From assembly GCF_018128965.1 (NCBI RefSeq), contig NZ_JAAEDH010000003.1, positions 124,001 to 188,000 on the forward strand: a stretch of 64,000 bases of DNA, read 5' to 3'. The stretch's first letter is position 1. Each line of letters starts with the position of its first letter. Of the stretch, positions 16,754 to 25,366 are shown piece by piece. The stretch is from Plastoroseomonas arctica. Its GTDB lineage: Bacteria; Pseudomonadota; Alphaproteobacteria; Acetobacterales; Acetobacteraceae. The position numbers were made by a program, and so were the translations under genes. The notes under the pieces were generated by a model, which made no database searches, was not told the origin of the DNA, and saw only the letters and a list, made by a program, of their open reading frames with translations.

Positions 16754-16838
16754 GCGGGCGTGGTGGAACTGGTAGACGCGCCGGACTCAAAATCCGGTTC
16801 CGAAAGGAGTGTCGGTTCGATTCCGACCGCCCGCACCA
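16754..16838 (+). tRNA. tRNA-Leu (anticodon CAA)
   Basis: This is an 85-base class II tRNA. The acceptor stem GCGGGCG (16754-16760) pairs with CGCCCGC (16828-16834), followed by A and an encoded CCA (16836-16838). The anticodon stem CCGGA/TCCGG (16781-16785, 16793-16797) encloses the loop CTCAAAA with anticodon CAA at 16788-16790. A variable arm and the T-loop GTTCGATTC follow. It reads UUG. Confidence 0.96.
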
Positions 16839-17358: not shown

Positions 17359-18906
17359 TTGCCCCAGCAGCAGATCCTGATCGTGGGCGCCGGCCCGACC
17401 GGCCTCGTCCTCGCCATCGGACTCGCGCGGCGGGGCGTGCCGTTCCGCATCATCGACCAGGCCGCCGGCCCCGGTGAAGCATCGCGCGCCATCGTCGTGC
17501 ATGCGCGCACCCTGGAGTTCTACGCCCAGCTCGGCTTCGCCGACGCCGTGATCGCCGAGGGCATCCGCTCCGATGCGATCCACCTGCGCGAGCGCGACGG
17601 CGCCGGAGGCAGCCACGAAGTGATCCGCATCGCGCTGGGCGATCTCGGCGCGGGCCTGAGCCCCTACCCCTATCTCCTCAGCTACCCGCAGGACCTGCAC
17701 GAGCGCCTGCTGGAACGCCAGCTTGCGGCCCTTGGCGTCACGGTGGAGCGTGGCACCGCGCTCACGGCATTCCACCAGGACGCGGCGCAGGTCACGGCGA
17801 CCCTCGCGGGCCCACGGGGCAGCGAGACGGCCAGCTTCGCCTACCTGTGCGGCTGCGACGGCGCGCACAGCGCGGTCCGCTCGGGGCTCGGCATCGCCTT
17901 CGACGGCGGCACCTACGAACAGCCCTTCTACGTGACCGATGTGCGGATCGAGGGCAATGCCGATGACGACCTCTACCTCAACCTCGGCAAGGACATCCTC
18001 GCGCTGAAATTTCCGGTGCGAATGACCGGCATGCACCGGCTGATCGGCCTGGTCCCGCCGCACCTCGCGGAAAAGGCGGACCTGACTTTCGAGGATCTCC
18101 GCGCCGAGGTGGAGGAGCTCGTCGGCATTCGCGTCGCGCAGGTGAACTGGTTCTCGCGGTACCGCGTGCATCACCGGGTCGCGGGCACGTTCCGCGTCGG
18201 GCGCGCCTTCCTGCTCGGCGATGCCGGGCATATCCACAGCCCGGTCGGCGGCTAGGGGATGAACACCGGCATCGGCGACGCGATCAATCTGGGCTGGAAG
18301 CTGGCCGATGTCGTGAAAGGCCGTGCCGAGGCCGGCCTGCTCGTCAGCTACGAGGCCGAGCGCATCGCCTTCGCCCGCCGGCTGGTCGCCACCACCCATC
18401 GCATTTTCACCCCGATGATCGCCGGCGGAATGCGCGGCGCGCTGATCCGCCGGGTCGTGGCACCGCTGGTCGGCCTGGTCGTGTCCCGCTTCGGCGGCAC
18501 GCGCCGCACCGCCTTCCGCACCATGTCGCAGATCGGCATCCACTATCGCGACAGCCCCCTGAGCGCGGGCAAGGCCGGCGCCGTCGCCGGCGGCGATCGC
18601 CTGCCCTGGGTGGCGGAGGGGGCGGGCAATTTCGCACCCCTGGCCTCGATGGACTGGCAGCTGCACGTCTATGGCGAGGCCTCGCCGGCGCTGGCGGAGA
18701 CGGCGCGCGGACTCGCGCTGCCTTTGCATGCATTTCCCTGGTCCGACGCGGCGCGCGACGCAGGGCTGGCGCAGGACGGGGCCTATTTGGTGCGGCCGGA
18801 CGGGTATGTCGGTCTGGCGCTGCAGGGCGACGATGCTGCCGCGCTGCGGGACTACGTGCTGCGCCTGCGCCCGGCCGGTGCAACCCCCAGCGTCACGGTC
18901 GACTGA
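17359..18906 (+). pseudogene. FAD-dependent aromatic monooxygenase (PHBH/UbiH-like) interrupted by an in-frame TAG
   Basis: Two adjacent open frames in the same register (17359-18255 and 18256-18906) together encode about 515 residues of a flavoprotein hydroxylase. The first has the FAD Rossmann motif 'IVGAGPTGLVLAIGLARRG', the 'GCDGAHSAVRSGLG' DG motif, and 'AFLLGDAGHIHSPVGG'. A TAG at 18253-18255 then stands where the family has Gln in the near-invariant 'GGQGMNTG...DA', and 'GMNTGIGDAINLGWKLADV' continues directly. A single C-to-T change (CAG to TAG) explains it. The start is TTG 17359, supported by a GGAG at 17347-17350. The gene is probably inactive, or the stop could be read through or be a sequencing error. 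Confidence 0.85.
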
Positions 18907-19395: not shown

Positions 19396-19677
19396 ATGGC
19401 CTCGGCGTTCGAACGTATTGCCGACATCATTGCCGAAAACAGCGAGGTCAAGCGTGATGCGATCACGCCCGACAGCCATGTGATCAACGACCTCGGCATC
19501 GACAGCCTGGATTTCCTCGACATCGTCTTCGCCATCGACAAGGCCTTTGGGATCAAGGTGCCGGTCGAGGCCTGGACGCAGGAGGTCAATGCCGGCACCG
19601 CGCCGCCGGAGAAGTATTTCGTCATGAAGAACCTCGCCACCCGCGTCGAGGAGCTGGTCGCGGCGAAGGCCGCCTGA
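19396..19677 (+). CDS. acpXL: acyl carrier protein AcpXL for very-long-chain fatty acids
   Basis: This 93-residue acidic acyl carrier protein has the phosphopantetheine attachment site '[13 protein letters not shown]' with Ser37. Its length, the extended loop '[21 protein letters not shown]' and the Lys/Ala-rich tail match rhizobial AcpXL rather than housekeeping AcpP (about 78 residues). AcpXL carries the 27-hydroxyoctacosanoate-type chain that LpxXL attaches to lipid A. A strong GGAGG (19382-19386) precedes the ATG. It is the first gene of a six-gene set whose order matches the acpXL-fabZXL-fabF2XL-fabF1XL-adh2XL-lpxXL locus of Rhizobiales. Confidence 0.88.
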
Positions 19678-19689
19678 GGCTCGGCAGCG

Positions 19690-20142
19690 ATGCTGCTCGA
19701 ATATTTTTCGATGATCGACCGCGTGGTGACCGTGACGCCCGAGGCGATCACCGCGACATCGACGGTGCCCGAGAGCAGCCCCGTCTTCGAGGGCCATTTC
19801 CCCGGCCACCCGCTGGTCCCCGGCGTGCTGCTGATCGAGACGATGGCGCAGGCCTCGGGCTTCCTGCTGCTTTCGCGCATCGACTTTTCCCGCATGGCGT
19901 TCCTCGCCTCGGTGAAGGAGGCGAAGCTGCGCAGCTTCGTCGCCCCGCGTGCGGCGCTGACCATCGAGGCCTCCCTGGTCCATGACGGGTCGGGCTATGC
20001 CGTGACCTCGGCGCGCATACTGGCGGAGGGCAAGCGCATCTGCGACGCCGAGCTCACCTTCCGCATCATGGATTTCCCGGATCCGAAGCTGGAGCAGGCG
20101 ATGCGCGCGCGCGCCGTCGAGATCGGGATGACGCCCGCATGA
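19690..20142 (+). CDS. fabZXL: 3-hydroxyacyl-ACP dehydratase (FabZXL-like)
   Basis: This 150-residue hot-dog fold dehydratase has the active-site segment 'EGHFPGHPLVPGVLLIETMAQASG', with catalytic His36 and Glu50 at the spacing of FabZ. It would remove water from 3-hydroxyacyl-ACP during chain elongation on AcpXL. It starts 12 bases after the acpXL stop, and its own stop (20140-20142) overlaps the ATG of the next gene (ATGA), so it is part of the acyl-elongation operon. Length and motif order are normal for the family. Confidence 0.88.
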   Translation: MLLEYFSMIDRVVTVTPEAITATSTVPESSPVFEGHFPGHPLVPGVLLIETMAQASGFLLLSRIDFSRMAFLASVKEAKLRSFVAPRAALTIEASLVHDGSGYAVTSARILAEGKRICDAELTFRIMDFPDPKLEQAMRARAVEIGMTPA

Positions 20143-21308
20143 ACCGCGAGATCTGGATCACCGGCATAGGCCTCGTCACCTCATTGGGCGAGGGCCGCGC
20201 CGCGCATTGGCAGGCGCTGAACGCGGGAGCGACGCCGGTCGTCGACACCGAGACCTTCGCGCCCTACCCGGTGCACCCGCTGCCGGTCCTGAACCTCGAT
20301 GCGCAGATCCCGCGCAAGGGCGACCAGCGCCAGATGGAGCCCTGGCAGCGCCTGGGCACCTATGCCGCGGGCTTGGCCATCGACGATGCCGGCGCGCGCG
20401 GCCTGGTCGCCGACATGCACCTGATCGTCGCCGCCGGCGGCGGCGAGCGCGACGTTACGGTGGATGAGGCGATCGCCACCGAGCTGGCCGACCGGCCGGA
20501 GACGGAATCCGGCCCCATCCTGAACGAGCGCCTGGCCAACGGACTGCGCCCGACGCTGTTCCTGGCGCAGCTGTCGAACCTGCTCGCCGGCAACATCTCC
20601 ATCGTGCATGGCGTGACCGGCTCCTCCCGCACATTCATGGGCGAGGAGAGTGCCGCGGCCGACGCCATCCGAATCGCGCATGCGCGGCTCGCCGAGGGGC
20701 GCGGCGAGATCGCGCTGGTGGGGGGCGCCTTCGCGGCGCAGCGCTGGGACATGGTGTTGCTCTACGCGCCGGGCGGCGCGTTGTGGCAGGGCGCGCCGGT
20801 GCCGGTTTCCGAACGCGCCGGTGGTGGCGCGGTGCTGGGCGCCATGTCCGCATTCCTGGTGCTGGAACACGCCGAGCATGCGCGCGCACGCGGCGTGCGC
20901 GGCATCGCGAAACTCAGCGGCGTGGCGACCGACGCATCCCGCCGCGCAGGCCCCGGCGACGCCGCGGCGAGCGCCACCGGCTTGCTGGCGAAGCTGCCGA
21001 TCGCCGCGGGTGCGCTTGGCGTGCTGTCTGGCGATTCGGGTGCCGCCGTGCAGGCCGATGAGGCGCGCTTCCTCGCCGCGCTGCCCGATGCGGTGACGCG
21101 CCGCCCGGGCACCCTGATCGGCCATGGCACCGAGGCGAGCTTCCCGGCGCACGTCGCCCTCGCCGCCACCGCCATCGGGGAAGGCGGCTTCTACCCCGTG
21201 CTCGACCCCGCCGACACGGTGTCGCGTGCCGCGCCGCGCCAGATCCTGGTGACCGGCTTCGGCATCTTCCGCGGCGAGGCGTTGGCCCTGGTGGAGCCCG
21301 CAATATGA
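20139..21308 (+). CDS. ketosynthase-like protein lacking the catalytic Cys (FabF2XL position)
   Basis: This 389-residue protein has the thiolase/ketosynthase fold start 'REIWITGIGLVTSLGEG' and family-like segments throughout. Where active ketosynthases have the nucleophilic Cys ('TACATG'), it reads 'GVTGSSRTFMGEES', placing Ser163 at the Cys position. The first catalytic His ('NGHGTGT') is also replaced ('LSGDSGAAVQ'); the second is retained in 'IGHGTEASFPAHVAL'. This pattern suggests a non-condensing partner comparable to a chain-length factor. It sits between the dehydratase and a fully equipped ketosynthase, overlapping both by four bases, so a heterodimer is plausible (inference). It corresponds in position to fabF2XL of rhizobia. 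Confidence 0.82.
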   Translation: MNREIWITGIGLVTSLGEGRAAHWQALNAGATPVVDTETFAPYPVHPLPVLNLDAQIPRKGDQRQMEPWQRLGTYAAGLAIDDAGARGLVADMHLIVAAGGGERDVTVDEAIATELADRPETESGPILNERLANGLRPTLFLAQLSNLLAGNISIVHGVTGSSRTFMGEESAAADAIRIAHARLAEGRGEIALVGGAFAAQRWDMVLLYAPGGALWQGAPVPVSERAGGGAVLGAMSAFLVLEHAEHARARGVRGIAKLSGVATDASRRAGPGDAAASATGLLAKLPIAAGALGVLSGDSGAAVQADEARFLAALPDAVTRRPGTLIGHGTEASFPAHVALAATAIGEGGFYPVLDPADTVSRAAPRQILVTGFGIFRGEALALVEPAI

Positions 21309-22576
21309 AGGACCATCTCGGCCGCCCGCTGGTCGCCGTCACAGGTATCGGCATGGTGACCCCACTCGGCTGGGGTGCGGCGCTGTCGTGGGCGCGCCTG
21401 CTCGCCGGCGACAGCGGCATCCGCCGCATCGGGCGGTTTCCGCTCGATCACCTCAAGACCACCATCGCCGGCACCGTGGACCTGCCCGAGGAGGACGATG
21501 GCGGCAGCACCGCCTTCTCCTCCCCTCAGCGCGTCGAGCGCATGGCCGCCTTTGCCATCGCCGAGGCCATCGCGGAAGCGCGCATTGGCAGCGAGGGCGA
21601 TTTTCCGGGCGCGCTGATGCTCGGCATGCCGCCTGTCGAGCATGAATGGCCTCAGCGCTTCGCCCTCGCCCGCGCCGCGCATGCCGGCCGCTACCCGGAC
21701 ATGGTGCGCGCGGCGACCGGCCATCGCGACCTGTACGAGACCTTCCTGTTCGGCGGCATCGGCGAGCGTCTCGCGGCGCGCTTCGGCACCAAGGGCGCGC
21801 CGATCTCCACCACCACGGCCTGCGCCACCGGTGCGACCGCGATCCAGACTGCGGTCGAGGCCATCCAGCGTGGCGAGACGCTGGCCGCCATCGCCGTGGG
21901 TGCGGATGGCAGCGTGCAACCGGAGGCGCTGATCCGCTTCTCGCTGCTCTCCGCGCTGTCGACCCGCAACGAGGACCCGGCCCGCGCCGCGCGCCCCTTC
22001 GAGAAATCCCGCGACGGTTTTGTGATGGCCGAGGGCGCGGCCGCGCTGGTGCTGGAGGATTATGAGGCTGCCCGCGCACGCGGTGCGCGCATCATCGGCC
22101 TGGTCGCCGGCTGCGGCGAGCGCGCCGACAGCTTCCACCGCACCCGCTCCAACCCCGATGGCGCCGCGATCATTGGCGCCATCCGCAACGCCATCGCCGA
22201 TGCCGGCGTCGCCCCCGTGGAAGTCGGCTACGTCAACGGCCACGGCACCGGCACGCCGGAGAACGACAAGATGGAAGCGCTCGGCATGCGCGCCGTCTTC
22301 GGCGAGGCACCGCCGCCCATCTCCTCGATCAAGTCGATGATCGGTCACACGCTGTCCGCCGCCGGTGCCATCGAGGCGGCGGCGAGCCTGCTCTCCATCC
22401 GCGACCAGGTGCTGCCGCCCACCATCAACCATGTGGAGCCCGATCCATCGATCATGCTCGACGTGGTGCCGAACACCGCGCGCCAGGTGAACGGGCTGCG
22501 CCACGTGCTGTCCAACTCCTTCGGCTTCGGCGGGCAGAATGTGTGCCTGCTGCTCTCCGCACCTCCCGAGGCCTGA
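21305..22576 (+). CDS. fabF1XL: beta-ketoacyl-ACP synthase (FabF1XL-like, intact active site)
   Basis: This 423-residue ketosynthase has a complete Cys-His-His triad: Cys173 in 'STTTACATGATAI', His313 in 'NGHGTGTPENDK' and His348 in 'SMIGHTLSAAGAIEA'. It condenses malonyl-ACP with an acyl chain. Context (AcpXL, FabZ-like, inactive KS-like partner, Adh, LpxXL) points to elongation of a very long chain destined for lipid A. Its ATG overlaps the preceding gene (ATGA), and the adh gene follows two bases after its stop. Confidence 0.9.
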   Translation: MKDHLGRPLVAVTGIGMVTPLGWGAALSWARLLAGDSGIRRIGRFPLDHLKTTIAGTVDLPEEDDGGSTAFSSPQRVERMAAFAIAEAIAEARIGSEGDFPGALMLGMPPVEHEWPQRFALARAAHAGRYPDMVRAATGHRDLYETFLFGGIGERLAARFGTKGAPISTTTACATGATAIQTAVEAIQRGETLAAIAVGADGSVQPEALIRFSLLSALSTRNEDPARAARPFEKSRDGFVMAEGAAALVLEDYEAARARGARIIGLVAGCGERADSFHRTRSNPDGAAIIGAIRNAIADAGVAPVEVGYVNGHGTGTPENDKMEALGMRAVFGEAPPPISSIKSMIGHTLSAAGAIEAAASLLSIRDQVLPPTINHVEPDPSIMLDVVPNTARQVNGLRHVLSNSFGFGGQNVCLLLSAPPEA

Positions 22577-22578
22577 CG

Positions 22579-23604
22579 ATGATGCGTGCGCTCCGCCTCC
22601 ACGGCGACCGGGACCTGCGGCTAGACACCGTCGATGCGCCGGCCCCGCCCGGCCCCGGCCAGGTGCAGGTGCGCATGCGCGCCATGGCGCTGAACCACAT
22701 CGATGTCTGGGGCTGGCGCGGCATGGCCTTCGCCAAGCGCGACCTCCCCCTCGCAGTCGGCGCGGAAGCCGTGGGCGAGGTGGTGGCCACCGGCCCCGGC
22801 GCGACGCGCTGGAAGATCGGCGATCGCGTCGCCCCCTATGGCGCGCTGACCTGCGGCGTGTGCAAGGCGTGCCGCGCGGGCCGCGACAATCTGTGCGAGG
22901 ACGTGCGCGGCGTGATGGGCTTCCACGTCGATGGCTTCGCCCGCGACCTCGCCAACCTCGATGAGCGGCTGATGGTCGCGGTGCCGGACGGCATCTCCTG
23001 GGAGGACGCGGCCTGCGGGCCGATCACCTTCTCCACCGTCGAGCACATGCTGTTCGACAATGCGAAGCTCGAGCACGGCGAGACCATCCTGATCCATGCG
23101 GCGGGGTCGGGGATCGGCACGGTCGCCATCCGAATAGCGAAGGATCTCGGCTGCACGGTGATTGCGACCGCCGGCGATGACGAGAAATGCGCCAAGGCGC
23201 GCGACCTTGGCGCCGATCATGTCGTGAATTATTCGACGCAGAATTTCCCCACCGTCGCGCGCCGCATCACCGGCAAGAAGGGCGTGGACGTCGTATTCGA
23301 GCATGTCGGCGCTACCACCTGGTCCGGTAGCCTTTTGTCGCTGCGCATGGGCGGGCGACTGGTGACCTGCGGGTCGACTTCGGGCGTCTCCGCCGAGACA
23401 AACCTGATGATGCTGTTCCAGCGCCAGCTACGCATTTTCGGCAGTTTCGGCGCCGCGATGCGCAACATCGCCGATGGCTACGCGAAGATGACGCGAGGGA
23501 TTTTGCCGGTGGTCGATACCGTGGTGCCACTGGAACGCTTCACCGAAGGCCTCGAACGCCTTGAAAGCCGCCGCGTGTTCGGGAAGATCGTCGTGACGCT
23601 GTGA
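22579..23604 (+). CDS. adh2XL: zinc-binding alcohol dehydrogenase/quinone oxidoreductase family (Adh2XL-like)
   Basis: This 341-residue medium-chain dehydrogenase has the structural-zinc Cys set 'CGVCKACRAGRDNLC' (about residues 92-106) and a nucleotide-binding 'HAAGSGIGTVAIRIAKDLG'. The family includes alcohol dehydrogenases and enoyl reductases; in the rhizobial lpxXL locus the equivalent gene is adh2XL and may supply a reductive step of chain elongation, which is not proven. A second ATG follows immediately at 22582. Its stop overlaps the lpxXL ATG (TGATG at 23602-23606). Confidence 0.87.
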   Translation: MMRALRLHGDRDLRLDTVDAPAPPGPGQVQVRMRAMALNHIDVWGWRGMAFAKRDLPLAVGAEAVGEVVATGPGATRWKIGDRVAPYGALTCGVCKACRAGRDNLCEDVRGVMGFHVDGFARDLANLDERLMVAVPDGISWEDAACGPITFSTVEHMLFDNAKLEHGETILIHAAGSGIGTVAIRIAKDLGCTVIATAGDDEKCAKARDLGADHVVNYSTQNFPTVARRITGKKGVDVVFEHVGATTWSGSLLSLRMGGRLVTCGSTSGVSAETNLMMLFQRQLRIFGSFGAAMRNIADGYAKMTRGILPVVDTVVPLERFTEGLERLESRRVFGKIVVTL

Positions 23605-24482
23605 TGGACGCCGCCCTCGGCGCGCTGTTGCGCGGCCTGTTTGCGCTCATGCGTGTCCTCGGCTCGCGCGGGGCGCCGGCCATTGGCGCCTTCCTCACCC
23701 GCACCCTGGGCCCGCTCACCAGCTACAACCGCATCGCGCGCGACAACATCGCGGCGAGCTTCCCCGACCGCGACGAGGCCTGGTGCCGCGCCGTCCTGCG
23801 CGAGGCCTGGGACAATCTCGGCCGCACCACCTGCGAATACGTGCACATGGAGACGATCTGGGATTACGACCCCGACGCGCCATCGCCGGATGGCCGCATC
23901 CTGATCGCGCCCGAGGTCGCCGCGCGCTTCCTCGAGCTCGCCGGCGACGGCAAGCCGGCGCTGATCTTCGCGGCGCATCTGGCGAATTGGGAATTGCCGA
24001 TGATCGCGGCCGCCAAGTGCGGGCTGCCCGCCGCGGCGCTCTACCGCACGCCCAATATCCGCGCCGTCGCGCGCGAGATCCTGGCGCTGCGCAAGAATTC
24101 CATGGGCGAGTTGATCCCGGCGGGCCCCTTCGCGCCGCTGCGCATGGCGAGCGCGCTGGAGCGCGGCCTGCATGTGGGCATGCTGATCGACCAGCGCTTC
24201 GGGCGCGGCCCGCGCATCACCTTCCTCGGGCGCGAGGCGGCGGCCAATCCGCTGATCGCTCAGCTCGCCCGCCGCTTCGATTGCCCGGTGCATGGCGCGC
24301 GCGCCATCCGACTTCCCAACGGCCGCTTCCGCCTGGACTTGACCGACGCCCTCGACCTGCCGCGGGATGTGGAGGGCCTGGTCGACGTGCCCGGCGCGAC
24401 CGCGGCGATGAATCAGGTCGTCGAGGGCTGGATCCGCGAACACCCCGGCCAATGGCTCTGGATGCACAGGAAATGGCGATGA
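23604..24482 (+). CDS. lpxXL: lysophospholipid/lipid A acyltransferase (LpxXL/HtrB family)
   Basis: This 292-residue inner-membrane-associated acyltransferase of the LpxL/HtrB family has the catalytic H-x4-E motif 'AAHLANWE' (His125, Glu130), an N-terminal hydrophobic stretch and the family's 'DQRFGRGPRITFLGREA' segment. At the end of the acpXL cluster it should transfer the very long acyl chain from AcpXL to lipid A. An in-frame GTG at 23601 precedes the chosen ATG. The stop overlaps the next gene's ATG (ATGA at 24479-24482). Confidence 0.9.
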   Translation: MDAALGALLRGLFALMRVLGSRGAPAIGAFLTRTLGPLTSYNRIARDNIAASFPDRDEAWCRAVLREAWDNLGRTTCEYVHMETIWDYDPDAPSPDGRILIAPEVAARFLELAGDGKPALIFAAHLANWELPMIAAAKCGLPAAALYRTPNIRAVAREILALRKNSMGELIPAGPFAPLRMASALERGLHVGMLIDQRFGRGPRITFLGREAAANPLIAQLARRFDCPVHGARAIRLPNGRFRLDLTDALDLPRDVEGLVDVPGATAAMNQVVEGWIREHPGQWLWMHRKWR

Positions 24483-25366
24483 CCCTGGTCCGCACCCCCA
24501 CGCTCGACATCGACTGCACCATCACCGGCTCCGAGGATGGCCTGCCCGCCATCCTGCTGCCCGGCTTCCCCTATGGCGCGCGCGACTACGATGCGGTTGC
24601 CCCCATCCTGGCCGCCGAGGGCTGGCGCGTGGTGGTTCCGTCGCTCCGCGGCCATGGCGCCACGCGCTTCCTGCGCGACGACACGCCACGCTCGGGCCAG
24701 CAGGCCGCGCTCGGCCAGGATCTGATCGATCTGATGGATGCGCTGGCGATCCCGCGCGCCGTCGTTGGTGGCTATGACTGGGGAGGGCGCGCCGCCTGCA
24801 TCGTGGCCGCGCTGCACCCCGAGCGCGTCGCGGGCCTCGTCACAGGCACCGGCTACAACATCCGGGACATCGCCGGCAGCGCGAGGCCCGGCCTGCCCGC
24901 ACAGGAACTCCGCCACTGGTACCAATGGTATTTCCACACCGAGCGCGGCGCCGCCGCGATGCGCGACACCCCCGCCGACGTGAACCTGCTGCTGTGGCAG
25001 ATGTGGTCGCCGGACTGGAACTTCTCCGACGCCGAATTCCTCGAGACGGCCGCCGACTGGACCAACCCCGACTACGCCGCCGTGGTGATCCAGTCCTACC
25101 GGCATCGCCATCGCGCGGCGGCCGGCGATCCCGCCTATGACGCGATGGAAGCGGCCCTCGCCGCGCAGCCCTTGATCACGGTGCCGACGGTTGTGCTGCA
25201 CGGGGAATCCGACGGCGTGTCACCGCCGGAGCAGAGCGAGGATTGCCAGCGCCACTTCACCGGACCCTTCGCGCGCGAGGTGATTCCCGCTGTTGGGCAC
25301 TGCATCCCGCGTGAGGCGCCCGAGGTGTTCGCGGCGGCGGTGCGGGTTTTCGGAAGCGGCGCGTAA
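24479..25366 (+). CDS. alpha/beta hydrolase with Asp nucleophile (epoxide hydrolase-like)
   Basis: This 295-residue alpha/beta hydrolase has the oxyanion segment 'LLPGFPYGARDYD', a nucleophile elbow 'GGYDWGG' with Asp100 in place of the usual Ser, and a terminal His274 in 'VGHCIPREAPEVF'. An Asp nucleophile followed by Trp is typical of epoxide hydrolases and haloalkane dehalogenases. The ATG overlaps the lpxXL stop by four bases, so the gene is translationally coupled to the lipid A cluster although it has no known role there. Substrate unknown. Confidence 0.85.
   Translation: MTLVRTPTLDIDCTITGSEDGLPAILLPGFPYGARDYDAVAPILAAEGWRVVVPSLRGHGATRFLRDDTPRSGQQAALGQDLIDLMDALAIPRAVVGGYDWGGRAACIVAALHPERVAGLVTGTGYNIRDIAGSARPGLPAQELRHWYQWYFHTERGAAAMRDTPADVNLLLWQMWSPDWNFSDAEFLETAADWTNPDYAAVVIQSYRHRHRAAAGDPAYDAMEAALAAQPLITVPTVVLHGESDGVSPPEQSEDCQRHFTGPFAREVIPAVGHCIPREAPEVFAAAVRVFGSGA

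Follow-up and report, generated by a model that had tools for sequence, protein, structure and literature searches.

A complete acpXL-lpxXL cluster in Plastoroseomonas arctica and the very-long-chain lipid A predicted for the Roseomonas group

The acpXL-lpxXL locus and its gene products

In this work, we have analysed a stretch of 64,000 nucleotides from the draft genome of Plastoroseomonas arctica, hereafter the window, in which six open reading frames (ORFs) lie on one strand at positions 19396-24482. Their order is that of the rhizobial cluster known for lipid A with a very long acyl chain, and an initial annotation made from the letters of the window had read them as this cluster. The six features are:

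19396..19677, + strand: acpXL, specialised acyl carrier protein (ACP), 93 aa; NF005079 and PDB 2kw2 match
19690..20142, + strand: fabZXL, 3-hydroxyacyl-ACP dehydratase-like protein, 150 aa; PF07977, 72.1 bits (cut-off 23)
20139..21308, + strand: fabF2XL, ketosynthase-fold protein without the catalytic Cys, first His and Lys, 389 aa; NF005084, residue counts and AlphaFold model
21305..22576, + strand: fabF1XL, beta-ketoacyl-ACP synthase with intact active site, 423 aa; NF005076 and residue counts
22579..23604, + strand: adh2XL, zinc-type medium-chain dehydrogenase/reductase, 341 aa; PF00107, PF08240, PF13602 and synteny
23601..24482, + strand: lpxXL, very-long-chain lipid A acyltransferase, 293 aa, with an HX4E motif (HLANWE); NF005120

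Three of the proteins pass curated (equivalog) cut-offs of NCBIfam: AcpXL (NF005079, 155.4 bits, cut-off 83), FabF2XL (NF005084, 473.6 bits, cut-off 320) and LpxXL (NF005120, 377.7 bits, cut-off 273). The six genes stand in identical order and strand in 62 of the 63 named loci of at least 13 kb, which were drawn from the best 80 of 325 relatives by FabF2XL match and are not a random sample; such conservation of order makes the cluster more than chance. Judged by these protein models and by synteny, the six genes are a true and complete member of the known acpXL-lpxXL cluster, as the initial annotation had it. The genes are closely packed, with 4-base overlaps at three of the five junctions, a gap of 2 bases between fabF1XL and adh2XL (for which in-frame starts other than 22579 are possible) and one of 12 bases between acpXL and fabZXL. 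A promoter scan returned no site, terminator-like sites numbered 4 against 2.2 (standard deviation 1.7) in shuffled sequences, and the Rfam and tRNA scans gave one tRNA-Leu at 16754, unrelated to the cluster.

AcpXL carries its phosphopantetheine serine in the motif GIDSLD and matches the PDB entry 2kw2, a 'specialized acyl carrier protein', across all 93 residues (E 5.9e-39). The AcpP of the same genome matches the ordinary ACP models PRK00982 and TIGR00517 and shares 36% identity with AcpXL over 59 residues, and by these matches AcpXL is distinct from the housekeeping protein, as had been supposed. A tree of ACPs (93 columns) gave absurd branch lengths, with AcpXL not even on one side of a branch, and was not used.

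The two ketosynthase-fold proteins differ in their active sites. We counted residues over an alignment that joined 127 locus rows to the window. A row had to have 350 or more aligned residues and over 38% identity; exact duplicates were removed, yet one row repeats the window. Cys173, His313, Lys343 and His348 of FabF1XL are all kept in 127 of 127 rows. FabF2XL has Glu at the cysteine position in 127 of 128 rows and Asp in the other, and the ten FabF2XL rows added later for the phylogeny read SRTFMGEE at this site too. At the position of His313 it has Thr, Ser, Cys, Ile or Pro and at that of Lys343 Ala, Gly, Thr or Ser, these two columns lying in gappy stretches and being less sure than the cysteine column; the histidine at position 348 is kept in 118 rows and replaced by Trp in 10. 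The loss of the catalytic cysteine in FabF2XL beside an intact FabF1XL is a new detail of this analysis, and since this residue is lost, no condensation by the usual chemistry is expected of FabF2XL. The AlphaFold model of FabF2XL (predicted local distance difference test score, pLDDT, 80.7; 20 alignment rows, weak at residues 135-163) has a ketosynthase fold, and a fold search with it ended in a tie (Z 40.5 for 6kxf_A against 40.4 and below for FabB/FabF). Chain-length factors, the partners of ketosynthases in other systems, have Gln at the cysteine position. Loss of the very-long-chain acid in fabF2XL and adhA2XL mutants of Agrobacterium fabrum is described in PMC11901934. FabF2XL is needed in that organism although the usual condensation is not expected of it, and we infer that it acts as a chain-length-factor-like partner of FabF1XL. 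The open-licence literature searched holds no paper joining FabF2XL with chain length factor.

Distribution and origin of the cluster

The draft genome (4.44 Mb, 51 contigs, 99.02% complete) belongs, as first proposed, to the Acetobacteraceae. It is classed in one genus with G115, whose rpoB agrees in contig, coordinates and score with that of the genome behind the Plastoroseomonas hellenica locus; the NCBI family of P. hellenica is Acetobacteraceae. P. hellenica is also the nearest named isolate by FabF2XL (78%) among the best 80 of the 325 relatives, where a metagenome-assembled genome (MAG), L039, is nearer (88%). These 80 comprise Roseomonas, Neoroseomonas, Pararoseomonas, Belnapia, Siccirubricoccus, Caldovatus, Falsiroseomonas, Humitalea and others, followed by Hyphomicrobiales; one MAG among them is labelled Asaia bogorensis, a label that could not be checked. 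The complete six-gene cluster is present in Roseomonas mucosa ATCC BAA-692 (L068). FabF2XL was scored in four overlapping samples. Matches above the cut-off came from 64 of 200 genomes at family level and from 30 of 150 at order level; the class gave 15 of 289, in ten family codes, and the phylum 28 of 299, where every listed positive was the window's own genome or one of the same class. The exception among the 63 long named loci, in a Hyphomicrobiales MAG (L109), has acpXL, fabZXL and fabF2XL, with fabF1XL, adh2XL and lpxXL not found within 6 kb downstream.

Is the cluster native to this family? We compared an rpoB tree of 50 genomes with a five-protein tree of the cluster in 43 genomes (1408 columns; FabZXL, FabF2XL and FabF1XL in 43, AcpXL in 41, Adh2XL in 36), both being midpoint-rooted quick trees with long branches. 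In the rpoB tree the 37 Acetobacteraceae are a single clade, whose main divisions are a group of 21 genomes and one of 16. We call the larger, which includes the window, P. hellenica and Caldovatus (G047, with rpoB at the place seen in the genome behind L076), the Roseomonas group. In the five-protein tree its 20 cluster-bearing genomes form one branch (support 100) outside the Hyphomicrobiales sampled, joined by one genome of the second group, G019 (support 96); the nine remaining second-group genomes share a branch (99) with five genomes from the Hyphomicrobiales side. A single clade for all 30 Acetobacteraceae rows was rejected with five genes (p-AU, the p value of the approximately unbiased test, 0.00065) and was only borderline with two (p-AU 0.0543), and the ten rows of the second group including G019 were rejected as one clade as well (p-AU 0.003). 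We then enlarged the two-gene tree by ten genomes of the family codes f159 and f160, the codes with the highest FabF2XL scores, which we take for relatives of Bradyrhizobium and Rhizobium. The Roseomonas group stayed one branch (100), with G019 attached at 83, and the nine rows of the second group fell close to f159 and the Hyphomicrobiales (90). Since the second-group rows branch with Hyphomicrobiales and one clade is rejected, at least two cluster lineages exist in Acetobacteraceae.

Distances in the cluster track those in rpoB moderately in the Roseomonas group (Mantel r 0.50, 3 of 2000 permutations as high) and closely in the second group (r 0.86, 0 of 2000). In the cluster tree G015 groups with three fast rows (G072, G174, G044) and the window's pair stands with G104, arrangements that differ from those of the rpoB tree. 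The clusters of these three fast-evolving Roseomonas-group genomes (L236, L235 and L234) have acpXL, fabZXL and both fabF genes; adh2XL and lpxXL were not found in the stretch fetched, which for L234 ends close by, and PF03279 genes lie on other contigs. The Hyphomicrobiales-like lineage of the second group is represented by loci L222-L226, L241, L243, L244 and L251, and in L223 and L224 adh2XL and lpxXL were not found in the stretch fetched. One Roseomonas-group genome, G016, has no strong cluster match, so losses occur in this group.

A recent acquisition of the cluster from Rhizobiales by the window's lineage would agree with the gene order, which is identical to that of rhizobia, and with the second-group copies that branch with Hyphomicrobiales in both trees; the rejection of one clade for the 30 family rows means that transfers did occur in the family. 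The window's copy, however, sits in the 20-genome branch that keeps its full support when ten genomes are added, its distances follow rpoB, and its G+C is native (0.699 in the cluster, 0.696 in the window). We therefore consider recent acquisition very unlikely: the window's cluster does not look like a recent import from rhizobia. A possible alternative is an old import, from a donor outside the sample or into an ancestor that predates the diversification of the Roseomonas group. The analysis does not support the idea of a cluster foreign to its family: it is common and old in the Roseomonas group, of native G+C, and on a branch outside the Hyphomicrobiales sampled.

The predicted lipid A

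We propose that the Roseomonas group has long possessed a complete acpXL-lpxXL cluster that makes a very long acyl chain and attaches it to lipid A, and we hold this to be highly probable. AcpXL would carry the growing chain, whose (omega-1) hydroxyl may come from a 3-hydroxybutyryl starter, as knowledge of the family suggests. FabF1XL would carry out the condensations, and its partner FabF2XL, itself not condensing, would probably give the long product pocket its shape. A housekeeping ketoreductase (FabG) would be borrowed for each cycle, again by analogy with the family, and FabZXL as the dehydratase and Adh2XL as the likely enoyl reductase would complete it. LpxXL would then place the C26-C30 chain at a secondary position of lipid A; this chain, like that of rhizobia, probably carries an (omega-1) hydroxyl. 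The 27-hydroxyoctacosanoate-type chain named in the initial annotation is a candidate for its structure, chain length and hydroxylation being readable from lipid A chemistry only. According to PMC5613085, a Bradyrhizobium lpxXL mutant loses C26:25OH, the acid that LpxXL moves.

The acyltransferase complement of the genome bears on this prediction. The family PF03279 is matched at two places in the draft genome, by LpxXL (112 bits) and by a protein on contig C35 (35.5 bits) whose neighbours are AMP-ligase, ACP and MMPL genes, a locus which we take to be of the aryl polyene type. LpxXL is the only strong late (PF03279) acyltransferase found in the draft genome, and the lipid A should therefore be largely modified with the very long chain. 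Eight LpxL-type stretches from Acetobacteraceae score 171-226 bits on the LpxXL model and none reaches the cut-off of 273; they were hand-picked among the stronger PF03279 matches as matched stretches only, so that the scores are perhaps slightly low. Two of them come from Roseomonas-group genomes that bear the cluster (G115, G024), where they are second copies. Of the 17 genomes of this group whose cluster includes lpxXL, 12 lack any further PF03279 match above 100 bits and five have one (G115, G005, G024, G171, G036). In one of the 12 (G088, locus L217) the LpxXL match is split over two overlapping frames, suggesting a frameshift or an assembly error. Elsewhere in the window's genome, contig C13 carries a run of lpxD, a separate fabZ and lpxA, all over their cut-offs, with an LpxI-like protein (199.9 bits, cut-off 400), and on contig C2 lpxK, over its cut-off, adjoins a 3-deoxy-D-manno-oct-2-ulosonic acid (Kdo) transferase (PF04413).

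Several points weigh against this interpretation. For FabZXL and Adh2XL, NCBIfam offers only general models, of dehydratases and of medium-chain dehydrogenases, at scores below the cut-offs, and the best model of FabF1XL, NF005076, gives 602.5 bits, below the cut-off of 629; within the ketosynthase pair FabF2XL is identified by its cut-off, FabF1XL by best model and position only. The fold search does not separate a chain-length factor from an ordinary ketosynthase. A DUF374 protein adjoining the Kdo transferase could be another acyltransferase. LpxXL is only 43-51% identical to LpxXL of the fetched Hyphomicrobiales loci, so the acyl length could differ.

The genes might make another long lipid, with LpxXL acting on an acceptor other than lipid A. 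No chemistry was found for the Roseomonas group, and in Bradyrhizobium LpxXL does not transfer the second very-long-chain acid, the hopanoid-bearing C30:29OH (PMC5613085), a point that also counts against our proposal; but LpxXL passes its own model and is the sole strong late acyltransferase found in the genome, which makes this alternative highly improbable. A third alternative is an aryl polyene or polyketide cluster, in which a ketosynthase/chain-length-factor pair would work beside an LpxL-like acyltransferase. The kinds of part expected there, an ACP, a dehydratase, a pair of ketosynthase-fold proteins and an acyltransferase of PF03279, are all among the six, but three specific models point to the XL set and neither a ligase nor an MMPL exporter is included, such genes being carried by the C35 locus elsewhere; the likelihood of this alternative is negligible.

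What would such a lipid A mean? Roseomonas mucosa is known from human skin and from clinics, and the cluster of ATCC BAA-692 predicts the lipid A of this species. The initial prediction of very-long-chain lipid A is retained as a prediction from genes, and Roseomonas-type bacteria probably carry it; if so, the trait reaches well beyond plant symbionts. Rhizobia owe to this lipid A a steadier outer membrane and a higher tolerance of stress (PMC11901934, PMC5613085). No paper in the open-licence literature joins acpXL with Roseomonas or with any word starting Acetobacter (which covers Acetobacteraceae), nor acpXL, lpxXL and Acetobacteraceae together, which is not proof of absence. Granulibacter, also of the Acetobacteraceae, has lipid A chains of C14-C18. 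The cluster is ordinary as a system and useful as a lipid A prediction, with one mechanistic point in FabF2XL, whose degenerate active site makes the question of chain length testable with two purified proteins. A broader proposal, on which we are evenly divided, is that FabF1XL and FabF2XL form a heterodimer of the ketosynthase/chain-length-factor type, with a conserved Glu for Cys, that measures the C26-C30 lipid A chain in all cluster-bearing Alphaproteobacteria, and that the Roseomonas group, R. mucosa included, owes such lipid A to a cluster lineage that is old and distinct from the rhizobial one.

Neighbouring genes and comparison with known systems

One further ORF follows lpxXL with a 4-base overlap:

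24479..25366, + strand: alpha/beta hydrolase ORF, neighbour of the cluster; PF00561, 81.2 bits

It was rejected as a seventh gene of the cluster, a homologue of more than 50% being present in only 13 of the 63 long named loci, eight of them named Neoroseomonas and one Caldovatus; a shorter Plastoroseomonas locus, L040, has one too. The hydrolase lies close behind lpxXL in six of these eight Neoroseomonas loci and in L040, and about 1.4 kb from it in Caldovatus L076. Upstream of the cluster, an in-frame TAG (18253-18255) breaks a gene of the flavin adenine dinucleotide (FAD)-dependent aromatic-ring hydroxylase type (17359-18906, + strand). PF01494 matches its two pieces in register, and the interruption is either a recent pseudogene or a sequencing error.

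The clusters of Agrobacterium, Sinorhizobium and Rhizobium agree with that of the window in all six genes, their order and strand, and in A. fabrum adh and lpxXL are likewise reported to overlap by 4 bases (PMC11901934). The window differs from them in its host, an acetobacteraceous bacterium, in the hydrolase ORF that trails with its overlap, and in a product read from the genes; its FabF2XL is 51-56% identical to that of the fetched Hyphomicrobiales loci. The very-long-chain fatty acid cluster of Bradyrhizobium ORS278 (BRADO4675-4679) shares acpXL, fabZXL, two fabF genes and lpxXL with the window, whereas it is without adhA2XL at the locus (PMC5613085). In another alphaproteobacterium (L231, 8454-9179) a short-chain dehydrogenase-like ORF, which starts MAGAVLVTGGTGGIG, lies between fabF1XL and adh2XL, by eye a possible dedicated ketoreductase.

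The ketosynthase/chain-length-factor pairs of actinorhodin (1tqy) and ishigamide (6kxd/6kxf) offer the other comparison: there, as here, an intact ketosynthase stands next to a degenerate homologue of the same fold. In contrast to those pairs, FabF2XL has Glu in place of the cysteine, its fold scores tie with those of ordinary FabF and FabB, and its pairing with FabF1XL is putative.

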